Assembly (NCBI GenBank): GCA_023231475.1 | Contig: JALJEE010000736.1 | Span: 16,996 to 80,995, forward strand | Source: Seison nebaliae | Taxonomy: Eukaryota; Rotifera; Pararotatoria; Seisonacea; Seisonidae | DNA length: 64,000 nt | Direction of reading: 5' to 3' | Shown here: piece after piece, positions 380 through 60,921 of the stretch | Numbering within the stretch: the first letter of the stretch is position 1 | Layout of the letters: every line of letters begins with the position of its first letter | The notes under the pieces: model-generated | What the model was told of the DNA's origin: nothing | What the model saw: the letters and a program-made list of their open reading frames with translations, nothing else | Databases searched by the model: none | Translations under genes and position numbers: made by a program

Positions 380-3300
380 CTTATGAATTATATCATATAC
401 TTCCATTGTCGTTTGACGTGCTACACATCCATCCTCCACAATTGCTACAACCACACATTGTGAATCGGACACATTCCCTCCAATCTTCTTATTATTGTAA
501 TTAAAAAATTCGTCGTTACTTTTCACTTTTAAACATTTCAACGTCATTCCTAACAATTGGTTTGGCGTTTCACGTTTGATAACAAACGTTTGGAATTTCT
601 TTATTATTTCACTTGTTTCCTCCACTTTAATATTGTCCGTTTCCGGTAAAGTACTAACGGATGACGATAAAGATGACGATCTGGTTCTTCGACCTAAACC
701 GTCGTCGTTGTCATCGTCTGAAAGCTTCCCATCTGGTTTCATATGATAATTCTTATCCAAAAATGTTTCGTCATTCAATGAGGGAATATCACTCATTGAC
801 AAAAGTTCATCATTCTCACTACATAAAATATCGATATTTCGCCAAAATTTTCCTTTATCTTTCGAACCGTTATTCGACGTAATTGACGATGAGAGAATGG
901 ATTCGGTGGAACAATTCTCATGATTTTCTCTTTTGGAAAATATTTCTAATTTTTCTCTCTCGTGAAGCAAATCCTTTCAACGAATGGTTAATTGGACACA
1001 CTGAAATAATAACTTGGTCCACCAAACTTTGCACGACGAAATCGACGGGCGAATCTGCTTTTTGAATAATCTCCACTGCACGTTCATGTGATGCGTTTCT
1101 GATACTAATATCATTCACCTGAAACATGTTTTATTTGGATGAAATGAAAAGAAATATTCGTTAATTCTTCAAGAGATCAATTCTTCATTATTAACCATGA
1201 GAATTCGATCTCCCGTTTTCAACAAACTGAATTGAGCCGCCGGACTATCAGTCAGAACATTTTTCACAAAAATTCCTGAAATTATTTTGTCTAATTCATT
1301 ATCAGAATCAATCCGTCCACCTAATTCCAATAAAAATAAGAAATAATAAGAATTTCGAGATCTTCTTCTAAACAACCGAACTAACCAACAATACTGATAC
1401 CCAATGAACGATTCTTCATTCGATTGAGATATACATGTCGTTCTTCTCCCCAAAGATTCTCGATGAACATACGAGCTTTGCTCGTCGTATTGGCGGTGAG
1501 AGTTCGTCCACCAACTGAATAACCGGTTTGTTGAGTGCATAAATTTGAAGGTAAATTGGTTTGTTTGTCCGTTTTTTCTTCGTTCAATTTCTCACATGAC
1601 TGTGGCAACGGACGATGATATTGGAAAGAGTTCTGTTTATAAATCCCTCTATTTTTATCGTCGTATTTCAAGATGGATTTCGTCGGTCTTGGTACTTCAG
1701 ATTTGATTTGCTTCCTCTCCAATTTCGTCGAGTTACTCTTCATCACATTCGATTGTTTATGATGAGGATTGGAGAATTTGATTATTTCATTCGATTTCTC
1801 TTTCGTATTCACCAACGACATATTATTGGAAGAGGTAAGTGGATTCTCATTGAAATTTAACTCGGGTGTTGATTGATATTTATAATAATTATTCTTTCCA
1901 TCATCATTCATCAGAGAACAATCGTTATCTTCATCATAAATATCTTTCCGATAATCATCGATATTATTATTCATTTCATCCTGATAATGGAGAATGATAT
2001 CCGAATCGTTCATTTCATTAAATTTATATTTCCTCCCACTAATCGGCGTATTGGCAGTGGTGGCAAATTGTCGATAGTTTGGTCGGTCTGATGATATTAC
2101 CAAATCATTTTCAATGATTTTATGATTTTCCCGATAATCATTCTCATTAGGTAATATTGGAAGTGGTTGAGATGAATGAAGATCTTTCTTCTTTTTATTC
2201 GACGAATATTTATTGGAGAAGATTCCATTGTAATATTCATCTTTCGAATCGATTCGATCATTCATCGAATAGGTTTCATCCAAATTCATATCACTCTCAT
2301 ACCAACGTCTTTTAATGGAAAATTTTTTTTTTGAATTTTCTTATATAATTTTCAATAAAATTAAACTTTCTCGTTCGATTTACTAAATAATCTTGTTTGG
2401 CTCGTGCGACATCAGTTTCTTTAATATATACAATACTTTATCATTAAGAATTAAAAGAGAATTGTCGAAAGAAAGAATTAACTGAACATCACCGGAAAGT
2501 AGATCTGCACGTCCCATTATGAATTTGAGCATGATGGGTGAAATACATCGAAGATGTTCGTTATTTACGCGAACGATGAAATCTCCGACATTCAATCGAC
2601 CATCAACTCCAACTAATCCATTCTTATTAATCGATTTTATTCGACAACCGTTTACACCATAATCGATATTCGTTTCTAAAGTGACACCCAAAAGCTTCTT
2701 TTTGTTCTTTGAATTTTTTGAACGAACATTCTTCCGATCAAATGACGATCCGATATGAAAAGGAACCAATTTCAATTTCCTTTCATATTCTTTTGGAACT
2801 TCAAATGTTCTTCGTCCCAACGACGTCACCAAACGACCATAAATACTTTGAACGGAAAGTGTTTGTTCATTCCGATCCTTATTAGTATTAGTCGTCTTAT
2901 AATTCTTGTAAAAATCGTAAGTGTTATACAGATTGGTGGCATTGGATAATTTGTTGGTACTAGTAGTCCTGGTGGTGGTGGTGGTAGTCTTGGTAGTTGT
3001 GGTATTCTTGGTAGCGGTGGTGATGATGGTGGTGGTTTTGACATGTGAATTTTTCAATTCTTTGCCCATGTCGCATTTCAACGGCAAATTCGAGCAATAA
3101 TTGCTCTCGGTTCTTATATCATCCTAAGAGTATCGAGTAAGATAAAAAAATTCATGAGCATATAAGAAATGATAAATTGGGAATGATGAGCGGGAGGAGA
3201 AATGGAATAATGATGATACACGGAAATGAAGAAAGAAATAAATGGAAATATTCCGTAACATTCTTTTTAACTCGAAGAAGAAAGAAATGAGGAAAATAAT

Positions 3301-14078: not shown

Positions 14079-14110
<32 letters not shown>

Positions 14111-19570: not shown

Positions 19571-20871
19571 TTAGATTTGAGGAGGATGTAAGAAATGCAA
19601 AATTTTAGTTACCAAATTAAAACTGTCAACGCCAATGAGAACAATATCGTAAATGTTTTTGTATTTCTCTAAATAGACATGTCGCTGAGAGAAGAAATGA
19701 ATAAAAGTTATTTAAATGAGATTGAACTTTTTCTTCTGTATAATTGAGGAATCCAATTTTCAAAGTATTTTCGATATATTCATTCCCATTCGTCATATTG
19801 ACATCACCTAATGAATCGCCTAATAAGAGACAATTCTTCCGTTGTGACCAAACGGATCGATTGACGGAACCCATAAATTTGTTGAAGGAATGGAAAACAG
19901 GTTTTGAGAAGGCGCATAATTTCCTCTGAGAAGTTATAAAATTAGAATTTATAAAATAAAAACTTATAAAATTAGAATTTATAAAATTAGAATTTATAAA
20001 ATTAGAATTTATAAAATTAGAATTTATAAAATTAGAATTTATAAAATTAGAATTTATAAAATTAGAATTTATAAAATTAAAATTTATAAAATTAAAATTT
20101 AAATTTATTCAACTATTCAACTAACGTTATGATCGAATTGTAAAGAATTGCCGATGATGTTAATAGTGTTGGATCCAGTCATTTCCATTCCATTCATATC
20201 TTGATGATAAATGATGGAACGTATATTTAAATGGACTTTCAATGCTTCGCTAATAATATTGGAAATTCCGGCTGAGAAGATAAATAATGGTATTTGGTGC
20301 TCTAAAATGAATTGGAAGAACTCTTCAATTTCTTTCCTTCATTCAATTTTAGTTAGTCGAGTGTAAATGGGAGTTGGAGGAAACTTCAATTTGAGTTTTG
20401 AATCGTGAACCAGAAAAGTGAGAATATCGTGAGAGAAGTTCGATTGTAGAATGAGGGAATGACTCTCCCGCCACCATTCATCCATGTTGGCACGTTTAGC
20501 TTCGTCCGTCAAATTGGGATCGATTTCGATGGGAAGAAAACGTTGTTTCAAGTGACATAACTGAAATAGAATGATGATGAAAAGTAAAAGAAATGGGAGA
20601 AAAGGAAATGAATGGGAACTTTATCGCGGAAATCTTTAGGGAAATGTTTCGATGTTTCGATGACTGCATGAGTAGTATGACATTGTTGAATTGATCCATC
20701 TTTCTCGTCCACATACGAATAACGACTAATAGTGTAATCGAAATCGCTGATGATCTGTAAAGCGTCGCTACCTTTCTCAATGAAAATCTTCAATAACTTC
20801 TCTACTTTATTTTCGTCACTTATTATGATATTCTCACAATCAACCAAATCATGGAAAGCGTCTATGATCAT
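19571..20871 (-). CDS. NT5C3: Cytosolic 5'-nucleotidase III
   Basis: A HAD-superfamily phosphatase that removes phosphate from pyrimidine (and, in some paralogues, 7-methylguanosine) nucleoside monophosphates in the cytosol. Exons: 20620-20871, 20385-20560, 20126-20336, 19728-19925, 19571-19684; together 951 nt, 316 residues, close to the animal length of about 290-335. The HAD nucleophile motif DFDYTISR puts the catalytic aspartates at residues 43 and 45. LPIEIDPNLT and the DEWW segment match the family cap region. IPLFIFSAG carries the phosphate-binding serine. GDSLGDVNM (from 249) is the metal-binding motif. The end of the last exon (LEKYKNIYDIVL) matches the family C-terminus. All four donors begin GTT. 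Intron 3 (19926-20125) is filled largely by an 11-copy 15-bp repeat. Confidence 0.93.
19936..20100. repeat. 15-bp minisatellite, 11 copies
   Basis: The unit ATAAAATTAGAATTT is repeated head to tail exactly 11 times (165 bp). Copy 2 is diverged and the last two copies carry G to A changes. It lies wholly inside intron 3 of the 5'-nucleotidase gene. Confidence 0.97.
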
Positions 20872-31712: not shown

Positions 31713-32259
31713 TCGACATCGGCGACTGATTTTTCAACACAATGAAAATTTGAAGAGGAAAATTTGAATTATTTCCAAAAATCCAAATTGTTTTTATTTG
31801 AAAATTATTGACAATCTCTTATTATCGAGACATTTTCAATTTAAGCTTTAAGAAGCATATTTCCAATTTTACCATTATTAAGCAACATATCCACTAGAAT
31901 CTAGTGGCATCTTATAAGAGAGATTTCTTAATGTAAAAACTACAGAATGACATGATTTGTCTCTTCGTTCCTCCTAACTTGACATCCATGCACTAGATAA
32001 TCGAAGTGTCATATGAAATTTGCACTCCAAATTTTGGAGTTCAACTGATAACAAAGTATAGTGGTAATGGAAGAAATTAGACAGAATTTTAGGTATTAAT
32101 TAGAAAATGAAAATGAATAAGAATTAAATGGAAATTTAAATTTAGTGTAAATTTATTTATTTAAGAAAAATTTTACAAATAATACGAATTGTCTGGAAAA
32201 GAGAAATGTTTGTATAGAATCGATGGATGGGAAATAAGAAAATGTTAAAATAATATTAA
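31713..32259. other. Short intergenic spacer
   Basis: A 547-base spacer between RAD54 and the protease gene upstream on the same strand. It should hold the RAD54 promoter. I see no motif I can name. Confidence 0.5.
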
Positions 32260-35200
32260 TTAATAATTCATAACAACTCCATCTACATTTGTTATGGGAG
32301 TGATGAAATTTTCCATGTATTTCATGACATTGGTATAGAAACCAGGTTCGTCTTTTTGAGCACACGAATTAATTGCGGTAGAGAAACTGACGACTCCATA
32401 AAGTAACCACCTTTGAATATCTTCTTCATAACAAACGAATGGACCTCCACTGTCACCCTAAACGTCGGAAGGATAAAATAGAAACTATGTTTGAGGAAAA
32501 AAATAAAGAAATCAAACGTTACAACTGTCTTTCCCTCCTTCTAACAATCCAGCACAGAAAGCATTATCTCCAACATCGTCGATCCATTTCTCTGTTTGAG
32601 GTGTTCGACATTCTTGTGGTTTGAATATTTTGAGACGTACGTGTCGTAGGATGGGTGAAGGAATATTACTATTTTGATCTGTTTTCCCGAAACCAGTCAC
32701 ATAACAAAACTTGTCATATGGAACAGTAAAATTCTTATTTCGATTTCGAATAGGAGGTAAACATGCCGGTCGTACATGCTGACCATATGGAATCGGTTTT
32801 TTCGTTTTTAAAATGACGATATCATTCAAAATATAATCGTTGCCATTTTTAAATAATCCGTGAGGTCTTAACGGAAATTCTACCTCAGCTACATTCTCTT
32901 TTACGATATCCGTATCGTTCACTTCGCCAACATTAATATAAAGTACTTTCTGAGTGATTCCCACGTTACTTTAAAAAGAAAATAGAATTAAAAATTTTTT
33001 TAATAAGAACCTGTCGAAGCAATGTTGAGCTGAAATGACGAATCGATTACTAATCAACGTACCACCACAACGATAACCCTCTGGTTTTACTAATTTATGC
33101 CAAATTGATGCCATCCATGGCCATTGGCCTTGTGGTGACATTTCCCCATTAACGATACGTCCAACCTTACCGTAGTCATCTGGTTTGAATTGATGAGATG
33201 GATGAATTCCACATTCTAGAAATTTACTCGTCAAATGATCTTTATTAACTGAATGTAAAACTAACGCGGTTCCCCACAACTAATCACAACAACCGCTTGA
33301 CTTTTACATTCATCATTATTTCTCAATTCATTGAAAATATTCAAATATTTCAATGTTGAAGTTAATGTTTCTCCATTTAATTTCATCATTGGAATTGATT
33401 GATTGAAAGTTTGGATGGAACTAATTGGTTCAATTCTCACTATTGCTTCATTTCTTTCAAAATTTTATTTCGGATCATTTTCAAAGAAAAGAGGAAACCC
33501 ATGTAATCCTAAATAATTGCATGCCTCTTGTACAATGATATGATCGACAGGTGGCCAACCATCGGCACATACAAACTTCTTCTTCAATTGAAGATAACCA
33601 CTAGACGGTTGTAAAGACTTCGATAATAACTGCTCCATCAGATATTTCTTATCCGGCTTAATTCCCACTAAAAAATGAATTAATATAATTGGAAGGAGGA
33701 AGCTTAAGAGAAATATTGGAAACCACAACTCATTTCGTCATGTCCATTTGTACAATCCAAGATCGAATTACAAACTTTATCCTGTTCAATCTCCTGTTTT
33801 CCATCACATGAGAATTCTATGATATTGAAAGTTCAAATATATTTCATGAGAAAAATTGGAGAAGATTAACTTGAAGAGGCATGACAATTCTGCTCATCAC
33901 TATGATCTCCACAATCATTCCTTCCGTCACACACTCTCATGTAGGAGACACACATGAAATTATCACATTCAAATTTTTTAGTTTTTATCGAACATTCTGT
34001 GCAGATTTGAGAGGATGAGAATTCTTTCAGAAAATCTAACCACATCCATGTTCATCCTCTCCATAAGAACAATCGACGATACCATCACAAACTTGCGATT
34101 CCAAAATACATGTACTATCACTGGGACACTTATATTGGAGATCATTACATTCTGGAATAGTGAGAATATGTTGAAGATAATATTTAGAAAATATTAACCA
34201 CAATTTGGTCTTTCGTCTGATCCATCATCACAATCGTTTACACCGTTACACCAATTCTTCTTATGGACACATTTACCACTGGAACATTTGAATTCGAATG
34301 GACTACAAACTGAGAGAGAAATTGAGAGAGAACTTAGAGAATATATTTGAAAGAAGAAGAGAATGAACGGCAAAGTTTCTCATCTTCATAAGTCGCTTCT
34401 AATTTATTAGTTTGTTGACTGAGGAAACTGCAATCGGCAACACCATCACATATGGAGGATTTGGAAATACATTTATTATTTTCTTTACAACGATAATCGG
34501 TCGATATTGAACATGGACACGATTTCTCATCTTCCGAATCTGGACAATCTCTAAATTTATCACATCTCCTCCAATTCTCCAGACAAGTACCGTCGTTACA
34601 TGTCTGAGAACAAGCATCACAAGATCCATAATGGACATGGATATTGTCGATGGCAATACTATCCATAGCCGTATCATAATAATGGAGCTGAATGATGATT
34701 TTCGATTTTTCGTTATTTTCCATTTTTACATTCTTTTTCATTTTCTCATATTCGGTAATGAACGGATTCTTCGTCGCTTTAGTCAAATCAATTAAAGTTT
34801 TATTAGTCTTACTAATCAATTTAATTTCCGTTGATAAATGGTTGGAGACCGTATAAATTTGTTGTATGACCAATAAACGAAATGTATTACTCTCAGTGAT
34901 GGCCACTCGAAATTGGAAACAAACATTTCCTGTAATTATGGGAGATTCGATTATCAATTCGGCATTCGCTCCTGTTGATCTGGGTGAAAGAAAATTTCCT
35001 AAATTTAAATATGAAAAATTGAGAAAACGAAAAGTCATCGAACCGAATTTAGTGTAATCATTTATTGGACGAAATCCCATTGGATTACCAGTACTTTCAA
35101 GCATTAAGTTAATCTTGTCCTTTTTCTTAATCATAAATGGATTTAATTCTTCATCTAGAATCGTTTCATTATTTGTTGATGTCATTAAAATATTATCAAA

Positions 35201-38200
35201 ATCCACATCAAATAATGATATTCCTTCACATGATCGATCCAATCGTAAATCAACCAGAATAATGGCTTCCGGTTTATCTGAAGTAATTTGTATTTGTAAT
35301 TGATTTTCTGTCGAACTCGTCGTTCTCACATTTTCCATAAGTTGTTGAGACACGGTATAAACTGATGATTTTGAGTAATGAAACGGAATTCTAAGATAAC
35401 TATGTAAAAAAATTGTAAAGGGAAGAAAAATGAACATAGTATTGATGGTTCCAATTCTGATCTTTAACAGAATATATGGCACTTCAACTGAATCGACTAA
35501 TAATATTTTCGTAGTACCAATAATACACAAATCCGTTCCATCTGGAAATTGTTCCATCGTAAGATCTAATCAAACGTAAATGATGATTTTATGATGATTT
35601 CCAAAATTATTTTTCAACTTTTCTTTATTATTCGACCAACTTCACATTGCTCGTTCCTACATGAATAGATCTTTGTATTCCTTTCACATGTCACATGAGG
35701 TATTGCATCACACTTTCTTAGATCACTAAAAATCAAATGGAATTTGGTAGATATAAGACTGATAAAAATCGAACTTGTATTGTCGAAAAAATATTCCGCT
35801 ACAATTCTCTAAGCTCATCGAATTTTCAGTGCATGCACTGTAAAATGAGTTGAACAAACCCTTCTCATTCGTCTCTAGAAACGGTTTTGAATTTTCCATA
35901 TTTTTTTTGCCAAAACTCAATAAAATTTGAACTTAAAAATCTGACAGTTTCCACTGAAGTGTTGAACATTTTCTGACAGAAGAATTCATAAACATTGATA
36001 TCGGTGTGGGCACACATCGTCCTCCAACGATTCCGATATTTCAATGACAATATACCGGAATTGGGCGAATCCGATTTCTCCAATCTCAAATCAAATGTGG
36101 GTACTGAATGATGGGAAAAGAAGAGTAATTTATGAATGAATAGAATGGAAATGAAACATTTTTTGCATTCGATCTCCGACAATATTTGTTGACAAGTGTT
36201 GATTTTCATGAACTCACATGGTGATGCTCGACTCCTCGGGCAATAAATGGCGAAAGTATCAACATTTGGCATATCTGGTACTTTTGTACCATATGATGAT
36301 ATTTCTGTTCGATCTAAACTGGAAATAATTGGAATGTTTCATGAGACAATTTTCAAATGAAATGGGAACTCATCCTGCGTGAATTGATGACATAAGTTAC
36401 TTAATTCTCGATTTTTTATTCCATCGGCACATATTGGCAGTTTTGTTGTTCCTTTGTATTTTTGGAGAATGTTTGAAAACTTGTAACTGAATTCAGCTTT
36501 TTTGAAAGTGACTACGAAAGAATTGAATGAAACTGTCGAATCTCTAAGAAATTTAACTGCAATCCGCTTCATCTTTCATGTCGAGACAATCGGCAATATG
36601 GTCGCAATGTTGTTCTGCTTCTAAATTCACCACTCCATTGGCACTTTGACATTCTTGTTTTACTGAATTTCATAAATAAATGAGAAGAATTAAAAGAGCA
36701 TAAAAAACATAAAATTTCATTTAATTCAAAAGTGAAAAGAAACAACTAAGAGACACACTAAGGAAAAGATAAACTACTGGGTGGAGATCTAATAGATGAT
36801 CGAGAAGATGAACGAGTGAAAAAGAAGTAATTAAGAGATATACATCTGATCGTACATAAACATAAATTGGGAAATAATTCGATGGAATCGATATGAGAAA
36901 TGAAAGTAATTGAAGAATTAAACGATACCATTATTTCCAAAAGTTTCGAAACAGTTCGTCGTTGGAAATTGATCGCAATTCAAATCGATCAATGTCAATG
37001 AATAAGAACAACTTCCTTTGATTTCTGAAATGAGAATAAACATCAAATTGAAAAAGAATAGAAGATGTGTCAGGGAGACCTTGACAATATGATCTACATG
37101 GAGGCTTCGCTGTCGTACACGACGGTTGGAGAATGATACACAGGAATCTTTCATAAGATTGATGACAAGTCATCCCGTTCGATTTCAATGTCTCCATCAA
37201 TGTCTGTAGATAAACCACTTTCTCGTCAGTCGTCGTTAGATATGGATAATTGATTGATATCAACGGTATATAATCGCTCTTATCCGAATCGGAATTTATA
37301 CACATTTCTGATTTTTTCGTACATTTATCTAAATTTTTTTGAAGTAAATGAAATTTTTTTTTTATGAATCTCAAAGAACCTTTTACGTTTGCCGTAACGG
37401 CGTCTAAAGCATAGCAGTCCTTCACCGGATATTTGAAACAATTGATCTTTCCTAACAATTTCGAGACGAGCGGCTGATCTCCACAAAGCGATTGGAACTC
37501 TTCAAACAGAAATAAACGGAATTGAATGAGAAAAATTTTATAATAGAAATTTGACTGTTACATAAATCTTGACATGGTTTCGCTGTTCGATTATTGGTAC
37601 AAGTGGGATAATATGAAGAGCATAAGAAATTCGGTCCAATTAATGGTGCACATTCATTTATAGTTTTCTCTAGTAGAATATAAATGAAATTGATGGAAAA
37701 TTCGACGTTGATGTTTGTCGTCTGATCGGAGAGATGAGGTAAGAGAGAAAATCCATTTTCTATTGGATCTAAACGATTCATGTCATATGTTAGAATCGAA
37801 TTAAGATGATGACGTTGACAATATGAATTTCTCTTATAATCTAATCGACATCCATTCAATGAAGAATCCTGAATATCCGTCACAAATCTTTCACAATATC
37901 GACCAGTGAAATGTTTGGTGCAAACACATGTTCCTTTATTAGCATCTCCAGTGATGGCGACACACGTTGCACCATTCTTACAAATTTCTTTAATTGCACA
38001 GTTCGGATAATTATAATCTATTTCACCGATACAATCCGTTTCCGGATAATCTTCACAATTGAATATTCTCATATTATTATATTTGTTAATTAATTTCGAT
38101 GCACATAAATCAAAAAATTTCCGACAGAAACTTTTACAAGGTTTTATTAACCGCGCAGTTGGCGTTCCATTATTTTCAATTTTACATTTCGGCGATGCCA

Positions 38201-41200
38201 TTGAGCAGAGGAATTCTTTTTGATATTCATAACAACTTCCATTGAGTAATTCATTAATTTCTGTCAATTCGATGTTGAGTCGTTAAGGAGTTGTTAAGAA
38301 ATGATAATAACTTCCCATATGGATAAAAGAATCTTCTTTCTTTCTACCGAACATTGATGGTGTGGCAACATATCGATATGGTCTTATCGAACATTCCGGT
38401 AATATTTTATCATTTCCTCCACATAATTTTTCTGATTGAGGAAAATATGGATAAGGATTATTAGACAAATATTATTAGTAAAACCATTCTTCAAATGCTC
38501 TTCAGATATACAATAATCAGTTTGGAGCATATTTGGTGCATTTGCTGAATATGTATTATTGGCAGGAAATATTTCACATTTGAACGTCCACGGATTCCCA
38601 CAACTTCTCACAATCGATTCACAGAAACTTCGGCAAGGTAACACTTTATATCCATGTGCCGTTTCAGTCGATACAATTTTTTTAAGATCACATTTCGTAT
38701 TTGTCATTGCACAAAGGAATTCATTCAGGAACTCATGACAGTTCTGATTTGGTAATCGATTTTTCAAATAATTAAACTAATCAGGAAAAGTTGTCCGGAC
38801 AAAATTAAAAGACAAAGTGGTTCAAAAGAAAAAATTTGTATTCTCATTAACTTGAGCTGAATTGTCGGCTATCGTTCCAAATCCGAATGATGACACACTG
38901 GACACCCATTGCCAGGGAGAGGTGGCGCATTCCGATATTTTGATATTTGATTTGCACACTTCCAAAAACCTTTTAGCTCCTGCGGGGAAAGCGTAATTGT
39001 CATGGAATAAAGCTAAATAAGAAATGTTAATTTTTGATAGATTGGTGAAGGAGAAGAACCATCAAATTTCTTATTTGTTAGACAAGTTTTAGATGTATCG
39101 CCTATGGGTAATTTGTCACAATTTATATTAATCTTATTCAAATATCGACTCTCGCAACGATTTTTGTATACTTGGGAGACTGATAGATTTGATAGAGAAG
39201 AGAAGAAATAAACATTTGCATTCGTCTTGACATGGCGTCCTGTAATTCATTTTGTAGACGGTACAAGGTGGATAAATGAGTGAACATAGAGTTCTTAGAT
39301 CTTCTCTTGAACAAACTTTCTGAGTGGAACAAATTAAACAGTTGTTCTTTAATTATCTCAAATCTAACTGCATGAAGTAATAATTGTAGAGAAGTGAGAG
39401 CACTTTGTTGGAATGTTTCATATCCGTTCGTCGAATCGAAATAAGCATTGGGAAAAGCAAATGAAGCTTCTTTGAAGAATATGCCACAACGATCATCGCC
39501 ATGTGCCATGCAACTTTCTTTGTAGAGAATTAGATTTCCTATTAATGATCGATAGATGGACTACTAACGTTCAGGTGATAATTGTGGTTGAGGTAAAGGA
39601 TATTTGTCGAGTGAAAATGGATTGTTCATTATACATTGCATTCTTTCATTGGGTAATCGATTACAATCGATAAACAAATTCCCCAAATATTGTGAACATG
39701 TTGAGAGGAAATCTAAAAACAGAAAAGAAATTTCACAATATGAAATTGACATAAACGTAATGAAAGAATAACTGACACACTCTTCGGCGCAAGGCAGATG
39801 ATCGATATCAGAACATGGCGGAGCGACCATTGGACATAGAAACAATTCAATTTGCCTTATACATGTTTGGGGCAAATTTGTCTGTTTTGCCACTTTCATC
39901 ATCTGAACGACCTCATCGACGGTTTGATGTTGAAATAAAGGAGAGAATTTCGATTGCATATATGGCAACGAACTGCACATGGGCAACACTGGTTTATGAT
40001 TCCAGCATATTTCTTGAGGTCGTGGATTTTCGTACGGACTATATTTTATTGATGATCCATAACAAATTGTCGGATCATTTCCATCTGGAAAATTCCTACA
40101 ATCGATCGATGTTAATAATTGATAGTGGATTTGTGATCGACATTTATCCATAAAATCTGAAAAAATGATCGACATTAAAAATTGAAGAGATTCCTCTTTA
40201 ACTTTCACATAAACGACGACATGGTGGCATGATTTTCGGATCGTCAATTGATTTACATGGTGGATCGAACATTAGACAAAGAAATAATTTCGCTTCACTG
40301 AAACATTTCGAATCGATTATCGATTGAGATTGTTTCATTACATAATTCGTCACAAACGGTACGTAAATGTTGAAATGATTGGGTATTCCATGTGTCTCCC
40401 ATTTTTGGTCATTACACATGGAAATCTCTTGTTTAAGACTGCAACTTCCAGAATTATAAATGTTATCTAATTCACCAAGAATTCACAAAAACGAGAAATT
40501 CACAAAAGAAAACTTTGATTGAATTGTTTCGATTTAGTGTTGATCTTTCTAATTTTGGCAGTTCGAGAATATAAAGAAACTGCACAAAGAATACATGAAA
40601 TTTTGAGAATGTAAATTTATTAGTAACGAGCGTCTGATTCACATTTGTCAATTAGAAATTTCTTCACGAAATCATCATCCTGAGAATTATGCAGATAATC
40701 ATTCCACTGAGTGGTTAATGCGTTCTCCAGTAACTCCAATCGATCATTGGGATATGAGACATTATCAGTAAATCGGACTAAAAATTGAGCCAAATCCAAT
40801 TGTTCTTTACCTTGATTCTTTTTCATCATTATCTCCGATTGATTCTCATCGAATCGAGTATTCAATATTTTATCGATATTAGCACCTTTCAACGTTTCGA
40901 TGATCTTTCATATTCAACTTATATTAAACAAATGATAATGGAATAAAAGAGTTCAAACATTTTTTGATAAAGTATTCGGATTGGCATGCTTCTTTGTCGG
41001 ATCTTGGAATACGTTGACGATAATATAATTAACTAATTGAAAGAGAATTAATTTTATATTATTATTAAATTTTAATTAAAAATTGAACTCGGTAATTTCT
41101 CTCCGATGGGATATGGTTCCGGTTTGTCATTTTTCTTAGCTAGAAACGAACATCGATTAGTTTTCTATGCATTCAAAGTTTAATTTTGTTTAATTATCCT

Positions 41201-42126
41201 CTTAGCATCTTTCCAAATGAGAGAATTTGAAGGAAAATAAATTTTACTTTACTCGTGAAGGTAACGGTTGAGGAAATCATGTGAAAAGTTCATTTAAGAC
41301 ATGTGGATCTAACCTAAAGACATCATTTAAGTTTGGTGGAATAAGCGATCTTAAATCGTATGATGAAAATAATAGAAGTAAAGTAAAGAAATGCTGGCAT
41401 GTTATTAGTAAGGAAAATGATAATATAAAGGTCCTGTGAATGGTTTAGTAAAGCCTAAAAATATCTTAATAAATTCTCAATCATTATTATCTAATTGTTT
41501 TATACGGAAATGATCGGCTAATTATATTAGTCCAAATATTACATTTTACTGATTACACATTTCTGAATTTACTACTACAATTACACAAAGTTAAATTGAA
41601 ATAATTATTAAAAATAAATGGTAATGATGAGAAAATAAGGTAAAGAATGAAAGGAAATGATACTAACTAAGAAATATTCCTAGAATGATTGCTCCAATGA
41701 CTAGTGTAAGAGCTATGGCCAGCAGAGCTATGAGTGTACAGACTCGGAAACGTTTTTTTGATTTAATTTCAATTTCATCATTCTTTAACGAATAACTCTT
41801 CCCGTTATGACTATTTGAATAAAGTTCATTGGACATAAAATCTGTATTGGATATCTTCGTCTTCTTATCAGCATCTGTCCAACTGAATAATTTCAATGTT
41901 TATTAACGTGAAACATTTTCAAGCGAATGTCTAACCTTTTATATAAGTTCTGACTATAAATTGCATGTGCATTTATTGGATTGGGTGGATGAGATCTTTT
42001 ACCTCCACTATTTTTATTAGTTTTCTTTTCATTATCAGTAAATTCCTCGTCATCATTATCATTATCAGTAATAGCACCAGATGATGGTTCATTAACTTTA
42101 CCTCCCTCTGGATTTTTGGGCGACAT
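32260..42126 (-). CDS. Corin-like type II transmembrane serine protease, seven Frizzled domains
   Basis: A cell-surface mosaic protease of about 2,457 residues. Exons, high to low: 41936-42126, 41668-41882, 41089-41139, 40959-41032, 40628-40904, 40514-40579, 40203-40466, 39773-40156, 39569-39712, 39369-39538, 39214-39319, 39060-39170, 38852-39012, 38485-38776, 38312-38431, 37556-38260, 37380-37499, 37080-37328, 36929-37024, 36558-36653, 36370-36511, 36158-36318, 35968-36103, 35775-35915, 35637-35725, 35436-35565, 34369-35399, 34199-34309, 34041-34151, 33871-33996, 33724-33816, 33499-33667, 33266-33453, 33011-33215, 32518-32968, 32260-32457. Order: cytosolic tail 1-110, membrane helix 111-135, SEA-like stretch, Frizzled domains 1-5 (about 296-965), EGF (about 970-1005), Frizzled 6-7, LDLa, SRCR-like, MAM, six LDLa, SRCR, peptidase S1. 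Activation site R2193/I2194 (GRIVNG); triad H2238, D2291, S2395; D189 of trypsin present (KDSCN). Corin, the nearest family, has two Frizzled domains. The substrate is unknown. Confidence 0.88.
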
Positions 42127-45100: not shown

Positions 45101-46204
45101 AAAAACTTTTTTTGGCAATATTAAGCAAAATTTAGCATACATTGTTATTTAGTTTCGACTATTTCAAATCACATGATATTACAGTTTGGTTTTTTATACA
45201 AAGTAGATATTTCTCAAGTTAATAAAATTTTAAAATTTTAATTTTCTTTAAATTAATGCACTTAAAGTGCCCAAAACTTTTAGAGCTCCATAACTTTCTT
45301 ATCCGAATTCTGAGGAGAAAAGTAAGAGTACCATGATGATCGGCGTCAAATTCTTCATCTAATAGATTTTAAAAAACCTATGTAATAAGGTAGTTCATTT
45401 TTGTGTCGCACTATGTAATGAAAAAATTGTTGAAATGGAAAAAAATGAAAAGAACTGTAAAATATTTCATTAATTTTCTTCAACTATAACTGAAGAACTC
45501 GAAACTCGAAATTTTCATTAGAACATCTATAATTTGAGGGCCATTGACATTACCCGAAATATTACCCGCCCAGCCATTAATGCAAAATAAAAGGTTTTAG
45601 AATATAAATCAAAAAAACCATAATTGGAAATGAGCCGAAATTTGAACCCTAATGAAGTTTAGCTCGTAATTGTTCGTCGCATTTGGGATTTGTGAATATT
45701 CACCATAATAACAATCGAATAACAGAAAAGATATTTCCAGTTTTGGAAAATGTAAGTGGAGGATGGAAATTGAATAAATTTTTTGTAGAAAAAATTTCAA
45801 AAAATTGGGAAATTTTAATTTAAAAAATTTTGAAAAGATTAACGACAAATAGACTTCAGTGAATTATTGAATAGAATCGATGATATGACGATGAGGAATG
45901 CTAAAAGAAGAAGGCGAAAAGATGATATTAGAAAATAAATAAAGAAATCTTCTTAATTACACGAAGTAATTTTCATGATAATTTGGTGATAAATGTCTAT
46001 GACACGGACCTATGTGATTTTCATTGAATAAAATATAAATTTTAAATAATTCAAGGAAATTTGGAAAAATTTTCGTAAATTGTTCGTTAAAGGAAATATT
46101 GTATGAATAAAAATGAAGAATAAAAGTTTCTAAAAGTTTTTTCTTCAAAAAAAATTGCCATAGAAATTTCTCTTAAAATTTCAATTTTTTTAAAATTTTT
46201 TCTT
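42127..46204. other. Intergenic, AT-rich, no gene seen
   Basis: A 4.1 kb stretch between the protease start and the saposin stop. It contains an interrupted (TG)n run near 42755-42792 and long A/T-rich blocks around 44.3-45.3 kb. Small frames at 42431-42714 and 45609-46148 look like chance. The protease promoter should be close to 42.2 kb. Confidence 0.5.
42755..42792. repeat. Interrupted (TG)n microsatellite
   Basis: TG repeats broken by TATG units, about 0.6 kb upstream of the protease start codon. Confidence 0.9.
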
Positions 46205-49200
46205 TTAGTTTCCGTAAAATTTCTTACAGAAAGATTGGGAATCACATAGTTTGGCTGATTGTTCTGATTTACACCAGAATTTTGGACCATGACCGCAACT
46301 CTTCACACTCAATGGCATCGATTTAATGGCATCGATGTAATGTTGATTAGTTGACGACGCTCCACAAAGATTGATCGTTTCACAAATTTTTTCTGGATCA
46401 TCCATTTGAGTGACGAGTTGAAGAACGTATGGAGCATATTCGTCTATATATGACACACAAGTACTTTGGTCAGCTTTCGGTAACAAGTCACACAAGTTAG
46501 TTAAAGCTTCAATAATTTCATGTTCTGTTTTGTTCTCCATTAATTCTTTGTTAATTAAATCGACTGCCAATTTGCAGAAACCGCAGAACGGTCCACTTAT
46601 CGACGTTTTCTCCAGAACGATCTTTTCTCGTTGGTGCACTGATGTTTTCTTTGAGCACAAATCTAAAAATGTACAAATCTTTTTCGGGTCAATTTCCATA
46701 CTGATCAATGTGGCGATTGATTCTTCATATTCGTCGACAAATGCTTTACATTCATTCGAAATTGTCGAGGGCATTTGTGAGCAGACGAAATCCAAAACTT
46801 TCTTTATTTCAATCTGAATTTGAACAATTGAAATTTTAGTCAAATTAAACTATCAAATAAACTTCGGAAGAATTGGCTGAAATATATTGAGCTGCTTCTT
46901 TCATTACGAATTCGCAGATTGCACAACCTTCACCATTCACTTGATCGGTAGTTTTGAAAGAATTGATGATTGGTTTCAATTTTATTTCTTTCTTTATCTC
47001 TTCTTTCGGTTCACACATTTTCAATATCTCACAAATTTCTGTAGCGTTCTATAGAATTTTTAATAAAAAAAATTTGTGTTAAAACAAAAATATCGAACCA
47101 TTTTATTTTCGATCAATTTCGATATTTCTGGCGCATATTTTCGAATACTATCATTGCACTGATTTGGAAGAAATGATTATGATGAGATTGAGAAGAGAAA
47201 TTAACAGCTTTCTCTGCCTTACCCAAATGAATACAAAGATTCTCTTGAACAAATTTAATTTCGTCCTCCTAAAATAAAGAAGAAAATGATGTAAAATTAT
47301 AAGAAATTATTATATAAATCAATATATAGTTCTAATGAAAATGAATGGACAGCAGCTAAATGAGAGAGAGAAGAGATAGAAAAAACTCAATTTGATAGCG
47401 AGTCGATTTGTTTTCAATCATCTTTTCATTTACCATCGTCTTATTTGATTCCATCGCAATCTTTACTTGATTCACCATCATCTTACACATGAAACAATCG
47501 GAAGAAGATTTAACGGTTTTCTTTATCGGTATTATTGTCTTAATATAGGATGAGCACATTCGTAAATCTTGACACACTTTCTGTGGTGTCTATAATAGAA
47601 ATTAGTGAAATTTTATAAAAAATTCAAATTCCAACAGTTCCATTCACTAAGAATGTGATGATTTTTTCTCCATATGTATCCACCGTAATATTGCACTAAA
47701 AAAGGAGAAAAAAATAAATTTTGAAATGAAGTTAAATGAGAGAAACTTCTTTTCCTTCTTTTATTGGTAATCGATTACATAAATCTAATTTTATCGCATT
47801 CAAAATCTCTTGCTAGAGAAGAGAAATAGAAATTTGAAAAAAAATCACATAAAAGAAGAGAATGAACATCTGTCAAATTCTTCGCTAATAAATCTTGCAT
47901 TTCCGTCACCGCCAAAACGCAGAATGGACAAAGAATTCCATTTGTCTTCTTCTCTGGTAATTGATGTACATTTATCGCTTCAATTGACATCGATCCTGTT
48001 TTACAAATCTTCAATTTCTGACAAATCTGCAACGGATCCTGAAACGAGAAATTTATAACTTAATTTCAACAAATTCAAATTAACCAATCCACTTTCAATA
48101 TATTTAATAATTGTCTTTCCATAAAATTCGATTTCGTTCTTACACTAAAACAAAAATCTCATTGATAATTCCATTAGAATAATCATGAAACTTGTTGGAC
48201 GTCTTTCGTGAACGGACAAACTTCTTTCTCGATATAATGTAACACAGCTTCCTATAATCAGATATGTGGAAAAGGGAAATCGAATAAAAATAATAAACTG
48301 ATGAATTGGTCGAATTGAGGATTGAACTGATTTGGGAGATGACGAATTGACAGAAATCACATTCTAAATTTCCGTATGATGACTGTAAAGGAATTGGATG
48401 AAGGAATTATAAAAGAAAAGAAGATGGATAGAAATTCAGCTGCTGATCCATTTTGGCGGAGGAAAATTTTTGAAAAAAAATATTTATAGAAAAAACTTCT
48501 TTCTAGGGAAAGAAAATGGAGAAAAAAGATATTTTCCGATAAAATACTGACGACAATTGTGGCTCTTTGGAGAGTTTGGAACACTTTCGGACAAAGTGAT
48601 GCAGCTAAATTTTCTTCTTTCATGTTCAGCAAATCGAACAATTTCTCCTGAAATTAATTTAAAAATCGATTAATTTTCAGCGCAGAAGAAATTGAGCAAA
48701 AATTTTAAAAATTAAATTTTTCCGTCATCGTTGAAAAATGATTTGATTGACAAGAAAAAATAACTTTGACAATTGGCTGTTTGGAGACGGAAGATGATGA
48801 TGATGCTACTTTTGGACACATCGACATAAATGAACATAATTTCTTTGTATCACTCTGGAAAATGTGGAAGAAGAGAATGAGAATGAGAATTTTGAAGATC
48901 TCCTAACGAAATCTTTCTTCAATTCCAGAAAAATCTCAGAAATATGTCGATGAATTGATGATTTACACTGGAATGAAAAATGAAATTGAAAAAAAAAAAA
49001 AGAATAAAATGAACTTCGTCTGTTTTCGGACAATAATTACATAATTGTTGTAAATTATCTTCTAATTCCTTCTCAGTTTTCACGTCGTTAATGAAACTTT
49101 TCACTTTGTTCATTGACCATTGACAGAATTGACAAACGTCTTCCTACGAGAAAAATGTGGAGAATGGAATTGGGAAGAATCGAACTGATTTTTGAGATTT

Positions 49201-49803
49201 AATTGGATTCAACATTTTTGGTAGAACTGGAACTTTTTTCAATTGAACGATATGTTTCGTCAATTTCTCATCATTCTTCGGACACACATGAATCAATCGA
49301 CAGATTACACTTGGAGCAATATTAGCGAGAATAATTTCAATCACTTCATCCACATTCTTTCCCACTATTGACGAACATTCGTCTTTCATCAAAGCGATCG
49401 GTATAACAGAACATAATTCGAGAAGAATCTCTTTAATTTCTTTCTGGAAAAAATGGAGAATTTTCAAATTGACTGAGAAAAATCAAACAAAACTTCTGAT
49501 TGAGGTTTCTCTAATGCTTTTCGAATTTTCTCCACAATATCTTCACATGACGAACAAATAGATGACTGAAATATGAAAATGAAAAAAAAATAAAAAAAAA
49601 TTTTCTAAAACTTTTTTCCCATTTGAAAAAAGTTGATTCTTCGACCAGATGGTTTGGATACAGTGACGCATCGCACCACATTCTTTTGCCGCATCGATGG
49701 AGGAACACCAAGCGGTTGGTCCCACCGTGCAATCGACGTCAGTCGCGTGAGAGACGTGGAGGAGTGGAAGATAAAGAAGAAATGAAAGTAAAATATATCT
49801 CAT
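46205..49803 (-). CDS. Prosaposin-like precursor, eight saposin-B modules
   Basis: A secreted or lysosomal precursor that is cut into saposins, small helical proteins that present sphingolipids to hydrolases. Eighteen exons, all in phase 0: 49612-49803, 49494-49565, 49186-49443, 49015-49143, 48908-48967, 48771-48854, 48555-48647, 48299-48382, 48192-48251, 48085-48144, 47868-48038, 47747-47812, 47636-47695, 47434-47589, 47206-47268, 47099-47158, 46863-47048, 46205-46813; 820 residues. Signal peptide 1-20 is followed by a saposin-A domain (CTVGPTAWCSS...CGAMRHC). Saposin-B modules start with CxxC pairs: CSSC, CQFC, CDFC, CPFC, CFMC, CAIC, CGFC. One further module between the second and the CDFC one is reduced to a middle segment (48555-48647). 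A second saposin-A domain (CGHGPKFWCKS) closes the protein. The layout resembles Drosophila Saposin-related. Confidence 0.9.
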
Positions 49804-50352
49804 GATTGGGAAACAGAAATGTGAATCTAATTGGAAATCGAAAGAAAAAATATTTAGAATGGAATGGAATTTGAATATGGAAATTTTATGAACTTCCCAA
49901 AAAAAAAAAAAAAAAAAAGAGAGGTGTCCATCTGAAAGAAAGAAATTATTGCGAGAAATTTAATAAAAAGAAATTTTTTTTTACTATAAATAATTTGATG
50001 GTAAAACTGATAAATATGAATCTGGTCTGATAAAAGTTTGGGAGGAGAGAATCCAACAACAATTTGTCACGTGAAAACGACTTGGTTGTCTCTACACTTT
50101 TCTATTCACAATTTAATTCACATTTCAACAATTAAATAATTCAAAGTTTTTTCTGTTGTGAATAAATTGTAAAGTATTGAAAATGAAAGAGATGATGATG
50201 ATAATGATATGAAGTTGAATTGAAGATTTTGTTTAATAAACATTCATTTATTTTCATTAGATAAACAAATGTGCTGCTTCCCCCCCTCTCTCTCTAATCA
50301 TCATTAATAATTAATAAATTTACTCATTCATTTTCATGAACCACTTTTAATT
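49804..50352. other. Short intergenic spacer
   Basis: A 549-base spacer between the saposin start and the ABCD4 stop, both minus strand. It has an A-run at 49900-49918 and a short (CT)n run near 50284-50296. Confidence 0.5.
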
Positions 50353-56020: not shown

Positions 56021-56237
56021 ATGCCTCGTCCACCAGCGTAAACAACTTTAGTTCCTCTCATTCAAACTAACCAAGAAGTTTCCGAATTAATTCTTAATTC
56101 TTGGGATATCTTTGAAAATACGAACTATAACGATGAAGCCCTAAAATTCTGCACAAGATTAGGTTTAATCGCCAATAGCACAATTTGTTGTTGGAAGTAA
56201 ATGCGATTGCAAACAGAAAACAACAAATTTGATTGAA
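56021..56237 (+). pseudogene. ISXO2/IS1595-like transposase fragment, broken
   Basis: From ATG 56021 the frame reads a short start, a stop at 56039, then about 50 codons (NQEVSELILNSWDIFENTNY, DEALKFCTRLGLIAN, STICCWK), another stop, then MRLQTENNKFD and a third stop. The layout, a helical start, then a C-x-x-C zinc-ribbon half, then M-x-L, then K-x-D, matches the N-terminus of ISXO2-like transposases spread through invertebrate genomes. The second cysteine pair and the whole DDE domain are missing. It is a fossil; identification rests on pattern alone. Confidence 0.4.
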
Positions 56238-57039: not shown

Positions 57040-58212
57040 GTGGTTGAGATGAATGTGACAAGAAATTTGGAAGATGAACCGACACTTTATGAGAGCGTTC
57101 CGGATATAATTCCGATAAATTCTACCCTTCCAACAAGAAATACGAATGTGGACGGTTTAGTCGATTCTACAATCGACATGAAAACTGCTCGAATGAAATT
57201 CGTATTAGGTGACGGATTACCAATCGATGAAACTGGAGTAGCACATCTGTTTACACAACGAACATATTCGGGACCAGAAAGAATTTATTTATCGAAAGGA
57301 ACTGATAACGAAGACGAGAATTTAGTGGAGAAGATTCTCCGTCTACAATGCGAAGTGAATTCATTGAAAGTGTTAAATTTGAAAAATCTTTCGAAAAAAC
57401 AGATTGTTGAGGATAATTATAAGAAGGAATTAACTGAAGATGATTATAAGAAATTGGAAGAGACAATCGATCAATTAGATATGACAGCAAAGACAATGGC
57501 TTTAGATGAAGAATGTGCACCATTAGTGCACGAAAATGAAGAGATCATGAAAGAATCGACATTATCTAATTCTCAAACTGTTTTGTCGATAGAGAATTTG
57601 AAAAGAATATTATCCGAGTTAACAGATGAAAAAGAAGAAAGTGAAATGTTGAAGAAACTTAAAGAAAATTGTTGTGAAATTACCAGTAATTTGGAGAATG
57701 AACAATTGTCCAAATTGAACAGTTTATGGGAGAGATTAACAGACTTGTCGAAGATTGTGGGACGTAACAAAAATTTAGAAGCGCAATATCCCAATCATTC
57801 CTTATCGGATATTTTGAGCATCATTCATAATCAGTTACGAATGGTCGATGTGAATGTTGTCGTTTCCGTCGAATCTCAATTACGTTCCATCATTTCACTA
57901 TATGAGAATAAAGAACAAAAAGAAATTACGGAAGATCAAACAACAGCTACGACGAATAAAAAAGTTAATTGTTTATTGAAACATTTCGAAGAATGGAAAG
58001 AGAAAGTGCCAATTGTCGATTCCATCCTAAAACGGTTGGAAACCATAAAAACGATTAATGAGAAAGGAGCTGAACACGAATTTATGATTAGTCGATTGAA
58101 AGCTCAACAACAATTGACAAAGAAGAACAACGAAGAGTTGACGAAACAACTCGAGAGAATGGAAAAGAAAACGGATGAGTTAATGGAAGTGTTGAGAAGT
58201 GCGTCGAATTGA
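57040..58212 (+). CDS. DCTN2: Dynactin subunit 2 (dynamitin, p50)
   Basis: Dynamitin is part of the shoulder of dynactin, the cofactor that joins dynein to cargo. The C-terminal half is coiled coil with family-like segments (HFEEWKEKVPIVDSILKRLE, IKTINEKGAEHEF, ELTKQLERMEKKTDELMEVL), and the N-terminus has LEDEPTLYESVPD, like the NEPDVYE motif that anchors p50. Length is about 390 residues against about 400 in vertebrates. The frame is open upstream to an acceptor-like CAG at 57014 or 57028, and family alignment suggests that a few more N-terminal codons come from an upstream exon that I could not find. The first ATG in this exon is 57049. One exon carries nearly the whole protein. Homology is weaker in the middle of the protein. 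Confidence 0.75.
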   Translation: MVEMNVTRNLEDEPTLYESVPDIIPINSTLPTRNTNVDGLVDSTIDMKTARMKFVLGDGLPIDETGVAHLFTQRTYSGPERIYLSKGTDNEDENLVEKILRLQCEVNSLKVLNLKNLSKKQIVEDNYKKELTEDDYKKLEETIDQLDMTAKTMALDEECAPLVHENEEIMKESTLSNSQTVLSIENLKRILSELTDEKEESEMLKKLKENCCEITSNLENEQLSKLNSLWERLTDLSKIVGRNKNLEAQYPNHSLSDILSIIHNQLRMVDVNVVVSVESQLRSIISLYENKEQKEITEDQTTATTNKKVNCLLKHFEEWKEKVPIVDSILKRLETIKTINEKGAEHEFMISRLKAQQQLTKKNNEELTKQLERMEKKTDELMEVLRSASN

Positions 58213-58597
58213 CGAAATGTCAAAAAATTGAAAATATTCGGTGAAAGAGAAATTTTTTTTTGAAATAAGCTTCTTTTATGCTTTTCATAATATTCCTGAG
58301 GACATTTATTATTTCCATTTATATTATATCAGAATCATTATATAAAAATATCAGAAATTTCAAAAAAAATTAATTTAAAATATAATACAAATTTTTTCCA
58401 TTTGAAATAAGACAGAAAGTTGAATAATTTCGTTTTTATCGACATCTCTTATCACTCGCCATAAACGGATGAGAACGATCAACAAAAATTGAAATTTTTC
58501 AACAAATCCATTTTTAATAAAAATTACGATAAAAGTTTTATCATAAAACTTTGAATAATCTATTTTAGTTGATTTAGTTGTGATATAATGATGAAAA
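58213..58597. other. Convergent 3' spacer
   Basis: A 385-base AT-rich spacer between the 3' ends of dynamitin (plus) and the first Ulp1-like gene (minus). Nothing further seen. Confidence 0.5.
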
Positions 58598-59437
58598 TTA
58601 ATAAACTGGAATTCCTAAAGGAAATAATTTGTTTCGGAGTATTTCGTAGGCGGTTAAGAATTTGAATTGGAGAATTGCCCGATTTTTGAATTTGGTGAGA
58701 ATTCGATGAGAAAAAAATTTCATATTCATCACCACATAAAATCCGCAATTCGTATTGTCTTTCTGTTCGGACGTGTGAGGATATTTCAGTTGCCATTCGA
58801 ACTTTTTATTTTCGAACGCTTTAAAATTTGTCACGATGTTCAATCTCTTCGCCGTTTCTTGTAGTAGTTGGACGAGTCGTTCCACATACATGTGGTTGAG
58901 TCGCGGGAAGTATTTGATCGATTCGAACGATATCAAATATCCCTCATCTAAATCGAGAACATGTAACGTGTAATGTAAACCGGCGTCGAGAGTTCCGAAG
59001 AACGCCAAAAACCGTTGGTTGAAAATTTGAAATTCGGAGGTGGTTAGCGCAGGTACAAATGAATTCATTAAATTTATAGTTTTCGTATCATTGAATAATT
59101 CGTCGAAGTCTAAAGACATCCTGATAATTATTCATTTCTTTCATTTTCATTATGAAAGAGAGAAATAACAAATCGACAATTCTTGAAGTAAAACCGTACG
59201 AAATCTCATATTCAAGAGTTCCTACTTTAATGTAAGACAATTGGGAAAGTAATTTCATTATGGGAACATAAACGAAATCAGGTTGATTCAATTTTGAATC
59301 ACTGCAAATTTCATTATATCCATCTTTCCATAAGAAGTGTGGAATTGAAGGATAAAGTAAATAATTCAATTCTTCATCGATATCGGAGTGACGTCGATTG
59401 GGAATGTAATTGAAACTTCGATAATCATCAAGTTTTC
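58598..59437 (-). CDS. Ulp1-fold cysteine protease, copy 1
   Basis: Two exons are seen: 59195-59437 and 58598-59109, joined in phase; at least one 5' exon is missing because 59437 follows an acceptor with a split codon. The second exon carries the C48 (Ulp1/SENP) core: HYTLHVLDLDEGYLISFES aligns residue for residue with the yeast Ulp1 H-W...D-S block, and Q-KDNT-NCGFYV gives the oxyanion glutamine six residues before the catalytic cysteine. Glutamate replaces the usual catalytic aspartate, and tyrosine replaces the tryptophan after the histidine. Ulp1-type enzymes cut SUMO or related modifiers, but transposon and viral proteases share the fold, so the substrate is unknown. The tandem neighbour at 60109-60921 is a clear paralogue. 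Confidence 0.7.
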
Positions 59438-60108
59438 CTGAAATGTTTAATGATTATTATTTTATTATTTATTTCTCAATTTATTCCGAGATAATTTGAT
59501 TTTATAATAAATAATTATAAATTATAATTATTATTAATATAAATAATTCATATATAAATAAAATTAAGAAACTTTTCGTCACACTCAATTCGGGTAAGTC
59601 TGTTAATTAAATAATTAATTGTATCGTTGAATGAATTATTTATGATGGAGATAACGTTGGAGAATGTCTGTTAAACTATATATGGAAATGGAGAAACGAT
59701 TTCAATGCGATATTAAATAAGAACTTTCTCTTTCCCACAACCATATCTATATTATATATATGATATCCAAAATTCCAATTAACTACAATTATTTTACTGT
59801 TAATTTCATTTCGTTTAATTAATTAAAACTTAAATAATAAATAATCAACAAGTATCGTATGATAAACATCTAACAGATTGTACTTTAGTACAGAGAAAGA
59901 GAAACGAAACTGAAAAAAAAGAAGGTTAATTAAATTATTTAAAATCAAAATCTCCTCGTTCAATATATCAATCAATTTCTCATCATCAACAAATAAACTC
60001 TCTTGACAATGTTGTTGTTGTTGTTGTTGAGAATGAAAGAGAAAATTATTCAATCAATATGGATTTAACATTGGAGATATTTTTATTTGAAAATGGAAAA
60101 GATGGTTT
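59438..60108. other. Spacer between the two protease copies, possible 5' exon
   Basis: A 670-base stretch. On the minus strand, 59930-60053 has a protein-like frame with a glutamine run followed by an acidic helix (VDDEKLIDILNEE), which may be part of the missing 5' exon of copy 1. The donor that would join it is not clear. Confidence 0.3.
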
Positions 60109-60921
60109 TTATTGGGAAAAGACGGGAAATAATTTATTGCGCCGGATCTCATAAGCCATCCTAAATTTCAATTGGTACAATTCGCGATTTTTGAAAATCG
60201 TCATTATACGATGGGCGAAGAATTTGAAGTTTATGAGAACGTAAAAACCACAATTCCATCGATCACTCTGTAGAGACGAGATTGGAGAGTATGATTTCCA
60301 GACGGTCTGCCGGTTTTCGAACGCTCGATTGGTTGTTTGAAGGGTTTGATTTCGAGCCGTCTCCTGTAATAATTCCATTAGATATTGGGCATAATGATTG
60401 TCGTGCATATACAATAGTCTCACCGATTCCATAAAGATGAAACGACCGTCGTCCAAATCGACTAGATTAAAAGTATAATGTTGTCCATTAGACGTTGTTC
60501 CGTAAATGACTAGATATTTCTCTCTTAGCGGTGGTAGACGAGTCTTCAATCTCATTTCCTTTAATATCGCCTTACTCAACGTATCGTTAATTCCTTTACG
60601 ATTCTCGTAGCTACAGAATATATTGTGATTAGAATAAAATTATTTTATGTCAAGTAAACTTTTCGAATGCTAAAGTAGTGAAATCGCCTGACGATTCATA
60701 AGGAAGGATGTCAAATTTAATAAAATTTAGTTCGCCCAGTAATTCCTTAAGCGGAAGGAATATGTCATCCGGATCGCTGAGACCAGCTTCACTCCCCAAA
60801 CTATTAAATTCGTCGTCTTCCCATGAATTGATAGGGACGGATTGGAATAGCATTCGATTCAACTCTAAATCCACTTGCGTTCGACCACTGAAGGGAAACA
60901 TATGGAACTGTCTAATGGCTC
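60109..60921 (-). CDS. Ulp1-fold cysteine protease, copy 2
   Basis: Two exons, 60660-60921 and 60109-60610, with intron 60611-60659 (donor GTTTAC) and matching phases. As in copy 1, exon 60921 starts with a split codon, so a 5' exon is missing, unless ATG 60901 is the start. Core motifs are HYTFNLVDLDDGRFIFMES and Q-SDRW-NCGFYV: histidine, glutamate in the aspartate position, oxyanion glutamine and catalytic cysteine. The tail FKNRELYQLKFRMAYEIRRN matches copy 1 closely. The family resembles SENP/Ulp1 deSUMOylating enzymes in fold only, and a mobile-element origin is possible given the retroelements next door. Confidence 0.7.

Follow-up and report, generated by a model that had tools for sequence, protein, structure and literature searches.

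Donors of the GTT type and a matching base in U1 small nuclear RNA genes of Seison nebaliae: a probable joint change of U1 and the 5' splice site

The stretch of DNA considered here (hereafter the window) comprises 64,000 nucleotides and is part of contig C453 of the genome of Seison nebaliae, a rotifer-like animal of the Seisonidea (PMC8351084); the system in question is the recognition of the 5' splice site, or donor, by the U1 small nuclear RNA (snRNA). The introns examined in this genome begin almost throughout with GTT, and three of the four U1 genes found carry A at position 6 (A6), the base that opposes donor position +3. Very probably the 5' splice-site code of Seison has been rewritten, A6 of U1 pairing with U at +3 and the donors having gone from GUR to GUU nearly throughout, and we read the sequences to mean that U1 and the donor site have co-evolved naturally. 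As the U1 change is the complement, at the one base opposite the changed donor base, lock and key apparently changed together.

Few RNA sequences are as conserved as the 5' end of U1. Surveys describe it as unchanged even where donors changed strongly (PMC10581693, PMC13326754; papers cited here are represented by those parts of their text that were available). A natural joint change of U1 and donors, if true, would show this pairing to be as open to rewriting as a codon; it would suggest a route through duplication of U1 genes, a variant copy and donors drifting in a genome that is small and rich in AT. An old question, that of the share of donor choice due to U1 pairing as against U6, U5 and protein proofreading at later steps, would become testable. 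It also bears on gene prediction, as a conserved stretch encoded in the genome is missing from one public gene model, whose donors are nonetheless GTT. The available parts of the literature on this animal (Seison genome paper, PMC12256650, PMC7310846) hold nothing on donors or snRNA, although mRNA-Seq (PMC8351084) and seisonid small-RNA reads (PMC12256650) are on record; in the portion of the open-access literature covered, no natural case turned up of U1 altered genome-wide and donors altered to match.

Sequences and methods

The genome searched amounts to 36.0 Mb in 846 contigs. The public Seison nebaliae protein SNEBB_005917 agrees at 100% with the RAD54 exon of the window. Introns were predicted with a two-strand hidden Markov model of our own, its coding part trained on long open reading frames (ORFs), which required only GT at the donor and AG at the acceptor and left +3 neutral. 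This gene finder was applied to 264 kb, made up of the window and 20 further stretches of 10 kb each, in three stages: neutral, with content models retrained and the donor still neutral, and with donor and acceptor learned.

The homology test used a protein-to-DNA spliced aligner, also our own, in which all GTN donors count equally and GT and AG are required, guided by proteins of other animals or by the Chlamydomonas-type IFT80 from PDB. Two RAD54 rows (GTA, GTG) that skip in-frame insertions within one open exon were left out, as were five of six references for ThrRS, which repeat the same introns (one moves a join by 6 bases, still to GTT). The genes aligned overlap the gene-finder set, and the two tests are thus not independent samples. 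Genes for snRNAs were taken from Rfam matches, the 3' end of each gene being the end of the match.

Donor sites

An earlier note on this DNA had described donors that are nearly all GTT, with a tally of 66 introns (58 GTT, 6 GTC, 2 GTA). The predominance of GTT is borne out by the neutral gene finder, by homology and by public gene models; the exact count was not reproduced intron by intron.

With +3 free, GTT was found in 49 of 49 homology-anchored introns from 11 genes (95% lower bound 94%), and a purine at +3 in none: PP1 (6 introns), FARSA (5), aromatic amino acid hydroxylase (5), BROX (7), TXNL1 (7), ThrRS (7), U1-C (1), RAD54 (1), IFT80 (4), an NT5C3-like gene (3) and SNF8 (3). Outside the window lie 45 of these introns, all GTT, and the window holds the other four:

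30985..31103, minus strand: RAD54 intron, donor GTTTGCCTT, from alignment to Ylistrum RAD54 with +3 free; the same join is used in the public model SNEBB_005917
20561..20619, minus strand: NT5C3-like intron, donor GTTCCCATT, from alignment to cytosolic 5'-nucleotidase III (PDB 2bdu) with +3 free
20337..20384, minus strand: NT5C3-like intron, donor GTTTCCTCC, from spliced alignment
19926..20125, minus strand: NT5C3-like intron, donor GTTAGTTGA, from spliced alignment

Barring GTT as a donor lowers the alignment score of a gene by 112 to 412 units; the exception is U1-C, with a poorly fixed join and a loss of just 1 unit. When eight genes were aligned free of any splice signal, PP1 and the hydroxylase scored as before and the other six gained 17 to 62 through more or freer joins; in those six GT and AG are assumed by the aligner, not demonstrated. 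Two public models that map to the DNA with neither mismatch nor gap use GTT at 11 of 11 donors (SNEBB_008475, ThrRS, 10/10; SNEBB_005917, RAD54, 1/1), an agreement that is not taken as proof. SNEBB_008475 (L020 4930-7885) has an extra GTT intron within a stretch kept by the ThrRS of other animals, which is either an error of the model or an alternative intron.

The gene finder gave the following bases at +3 in the whole sample and in the part of the window from 380 to 60921:

Sample, neutral first pass: 213 introns; T 162, A 18, C 17, G 16
Sample, content retrained, donor neutral: 304 introns; T 233, A 33, C 19, G 19
Sample, donor and acceptor learned: 321 introns (median length 50); T 283, A 20, C 10, G 8
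Window, neutral first pass: 57 introns; T 38, C 10, A 7, G 2
Window, neutral second pass: 87 introns; T 61, A 12, C 10, G 4
Window, donor learned: 89 introns; T 76, A 6, C 5, G 2

As background, T follows 9177 of 22943 GT on both strands of the 264 kb (40%) and 1455 of 3986 in long ORFs (36.5%). Against 0.40, the probability is about 1e-26 for 162 T among 213 and 3e-16 for 39 of 39, the latter being the homology donors used below for donor shape and pairing. A likelihood test that tried eleven donor words one at a time, with content models from ORFs and bulk sequence, put GTT first (1001 nats over a model with no introns; free GTN 840), ahead of ATT (700), TTG (607), AGT (599), TGT (570), GAT (543), CTT (494), GTG (471), GTC (458), GTA (378) and GCT (376), these gains being uncorrected for word frequency, in which ATT and TTG exceed GTT. 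As donor words GTA, GTG and GTC are no better than arbitrary words.

The flanks of the 39 homology donors have the following composition:

-2: A 25, C 9, G 4, T 1
-1: A 21, G 8, T 6, C 4
+3: T 39
+4: A 16, T 16, C 5, G 2
+5: A 15, T 9, G 8, C 7
+6: T 20, A 11, C 8

Base composition was rejected as the cause of T at +3, since +4 lacks an enrichment of T like that at +3. The absence of a fixed G at +5, also claimed earlier, is seen again here (8 of the 39 homology donors have G there, as do 71 of the 321 from the gene finder), and among the 321 donors GTTAGT occurs 18 times as against once for GTAAGT, GTGAGT and GTATGT together. The acceptor is a weak YAG.

Against an absolute GTT rule stand the 38 of 321 introns that the learned gene finder places at other donors, 11 of which are locally supported by over 10 nats, none of them with a homology anchor. 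The supported ones are four GTA introns (two in L024, one in L008, one at window 36846), three GTG introns (L024, L025, window 36663) and four GTC introns (window 37025, 37500 and 48503, and L020), and a small GTC or GTA donor class alongside GTT is possible. A minor-spliceosome origin of GTA introns was rejected: the strict U12-type pattern (RTATCCTT donor with TTCCTTRAC branch site) has one match in the whole genome and one in the reversed control, and none in 323 kb. A search for U11, which gave no signal anywhere, carries no weight either way. A U4atac-like gene does lie above its cut-off (L006 1501-1629), though strict U12-type introns are no commoner than in the control. The window candidates with support, given in nats over GTT-only models and each with no homology anchor, include:

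36846..36928, minus strand: candidate GTA intron (GTATCGTTT), 13.3 nats
37025..37079, minus strand: candidate GTC intron, 12.7 nats
48503..48551, minus strand: candidate GTC intron, 10.8 nats
37500..37555, minus strand: candidate GTC intron, 10.1 nats

U1 genes and their pairing with donors

Four U1 genes lie above the cut-off of the Rfam covariance model RF00003 (69.5 bits), with 97.4 to 112.9 bits, and a whole-genome pattern left open at position 6 recovered the same four and no more (reversed control 0). One has the canonical 5' end ACUUACC; the others have ACUAACC, ACUAACC and ACUAACU. Read 5' to 3', L001 and L003 start with AUACUAACCUGG, L004 with AUACUAACUUGG and the canonical-ended L002 with AUACUUACCUGG. 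A shift of U1 had been put forward earlier as one explanation of the donors, together with a comparison of U1 5' ends with the donor; that comparison matches A at position 6 with U at +3, so that in three of four genes this single base change brings pairing back. Position 9 opposes donor -1, and the A6 gene that also has U there (C to U; A6U9) is complementary to A at -1, now the commonest base at that position.

The loop of stem-loop II, which we take to be the U1A site, is AUUGCAC in the three A6 genes and AGAGCAC in L002. A 13-base 3' box, which scores 97 and so exceeds each of 15 shuffles (highest 92), follows 6 to 16 bases downstream of the three A6 U1 genes, of U5 and of two of the three U2 genes; it is absent from L002, from the divergent U2 gene (L040) and from U4atac. 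L001 and L002, an A6 and the canonical-ended gene, face each other 1.5 kb apart on one contig (C208 6576-8439). Contamination is an unlikely source of the U1 genes, as their contigs carry genes with GTT introns (19/19, 5/5 and 13/13 with the donor learned; 19/21, 4/6 and 13/13 with it neutral) and the canonical-ended gene shares C208 with an A6 gene. The variant 5' end has no match in viral contigs and five in bacterial contigs, which are presumably due to chance.

Mean duplex energies, calculated with the register left free and with pseudouridine and proteins ignored, are as follows (kcal/mol):

39 homology donors: U1-A6U9 -4.08, U1-A6 -3.20, canonical U1 -2.37
Decoy GTT in ORFs: U1-A6U9 -2.62, U1-A6 -2.50, canonical U1 -1.87
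39 donors with +3 set to A: U1-A6U9 -3.29, U1-A6 -3.11, canonical U1 -4.17

By these energies Seison donors would cost canonical U1 about 1.8 kcal/mol in pairing, most of which U1-A6U9 would regain.

Other snRNAs and splicing proteins

The one U6 gene found keeps ACAGAGA, the one U5 gene the GCCUUUUAC loop, and U2 the GUAGUA branch-site element. U2 has three genes (139.1, 135.4 and 78.7 bits, the divergent one at L040 1501-1702), and U4 two separate genes; one LUC7 locus was found. PRPF8 is a single open frame of 2395 codons free of introns (G000:C431:80270-81487 and around, L031). Three nearly fixed positions of U1-C near the U1:donor duplex are changed in Seison to K28, N29 and G32; its relatives have R28 in 117 of 119, K29 in 117 of 119 and D or E at 32 in 118 of 119, these being the best 120 of 1021 matches minus Seison's own and not a balanced sample. 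In the human structure the RNA backbone is close to residues 28 and 29, and the 5' end of U1 is close to residue 32 (PMC4383343).

Other features of the window

Further introns of the window are gene-finder predictions:

341..2482, minus strand: PDZ-domain gene with six predicted GTT introns (341-379, 974-1013, 1119-1195, 1321-1385, 2309-2366, 2436-2482; learned gene finder); the joined protein has two PDZ stretches
31726..41247, minus strand: run of short predicted introns, mostly GTT; the others are 36663 (GTG), 36846 (GTA), 37025 (GTC), 37500 (GTC) and 41165 (GTA)
46010..50241, minus strand: prosaposin-like gene with 21 predicted introns, GTT except at 46010, 47269, 48503 and 49799
59121..60659, minus strand: introns around two Ulp1-like genes, 7 of 8 GTT

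The joined prosaposin-like prediction contains six SapB_2 and five SapB_1 stretches and many phase-2 exons. The gene finder's merger of the run at 31726..41247 with RAD54 into one gene is surely wrong, and the GTC intron at 59883 in the Ulp1-like region has no support over GTT-only models. Within and beside the 200-base NT5C3-like intron lies an INSNF-like repeated frame, a short tandem repeat (19626-20108, minus strand). Frames at 62844-63999 (minus strand) resemble, by eye, the remnant of a retrotransposon reverse transcriptase; the part from 63421 to 63999 has no Pfam match.

Discussion

A rewritten donor code could have come about in a few steps. U1 would have been duplicated, permitting change; a copy with A6 would then have arisen, and donors may have drifted to GUU under it, an order and causes that are conjectural; a second copy may have gained U9 as -1 turned A-rich, likewise in a presumed order. 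The canonical-ended gene would be a relic or have another job. Because U6, U5 and U2 are unchanged, later steps presumably accept U at +3 after U1 hands over the donor.

Several points weigh against this scheme. It presupposes transcription of the variant U1 genes and use of their products at the donors; a promoter motif common to snRNA genes scored no better than shuffles (82 as against 80 to 83), and a canonical-ended gene persists in the genome. Predicted U1 pairing is weak overall, and U1-A6 is near-indifferent to +3 (-3.1 kcal/mol for A, -3.2 for U), perhaps because the calculation may use another register, so that a clear gain from U at +3 is confined to U1-A6U9 (-4.1 as against -3.3). 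Pairing with U1 should set -1 off against +4/+5, and the sign of such a trade-off is just suggestive, with p 0.017 and 0.09 in the two neutral sets and 0.29 in the 39 homology donors.

Weak pairing beyond GUU would fit a shift led by proteins, in which a changed U1-C, LUC7 or Prp8 demands U at +3 and the U1 change is passive or due to chance. The substitutions at 28, 29 and 32 of U1-C fit such a shift, as does the failure of an R28G/K29S mutant of U1-C to enhance E complex (PMC4383343); it leaves the exact complementarity of the U1 change unexplained and is improbable as the leading cause, although a contribution of donor-reading proteins, as suggested earlier, is possible given those substitutions. 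Nothing singles out definition of introns from the acceptor side, the other suggestion of the earlier note (weak YAG, unchanged branch-site motif of U2), of which no direct test was made. Position +3 of the donor also opposes U6, and with U1 pairing weak the choice of U might be made at a later step, by U6, U5 or the active site, the U1 change being secondary; the ACAGAGA of U6 and the loop of U5 are kept, and this explanation is still less likely than one led by proteins. An artefact of prediction (joins off by one or two bases, or T-rich introns yielding T at +3) is hardly credible, for while introns are T-rich and 12% of introns in the gene finder alone have other bases at +3, protein homology with +3 free gives GTT in 49/49, +4 is T in just 16/39 and public models agree at 11/11.

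The joint change of U1 and donors is hence preferred. A further-reaching proposal is offered tentatively, as one that we hold open to considerable doubt: a near-orthogonal, wholly recoded major spliceosome, in which the dominant U1 would read GUU and not GUR, a second U1 form would read A at -1, splicing would be poor for GTA and GTG introns (of host or viral origin, or acquired by horizontal transfer), and the canonical-ended U1 would be a decaying ancestor or have a job outside splicing.

Comparison with known systems

With the canonical animal U2-type system, in which ACUUACC of U1 pairs with AG|GURAGU, Seison presumably shares GT-AG introns, and it has in common with it the U1 stem-loops and Sm-like site, conserved U2, U5 and U6, and a U1-C protein; it differs in A6 in three of four U1 genes, in U at +3, and in that G is not dominant at -1 and +5. 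The tunicate Fritillaria borealis, with about 95% non-GT/AG introns, is likewise an animal with splice sites far from the consensus, but its U1 5' ends are reported to be strictly conserved, with no difference between two versions of U1, and a divergent U1, apparently the route of Seison, is according to the available text not the one it took (PMC13326754). In Saccharomycotina one donor base (+4) has also changed lineage-wide; there, in contrast, U1 keeps ACUUACC in every species that yielded a candidate, and the switches are tied to METTL16 and SNRNP27K (PMC10581693). Entamoeba histolytica shares U at +3 in its GUUUGU donors, whereas in the parts of the sources available no U1 snRNA is recognized in it and hence no compensating U1 base is known (PMC6018208, PMC13292270). 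Engineered therapeutic U1 snRNAs, as far as the available descriptions go, resemble Seison in the base change itself: in these too a U1 base is altered to fit an altered donor, but they are made in the laboratory for single mutations, whereas the change in Seison would be natural and genome-wide.
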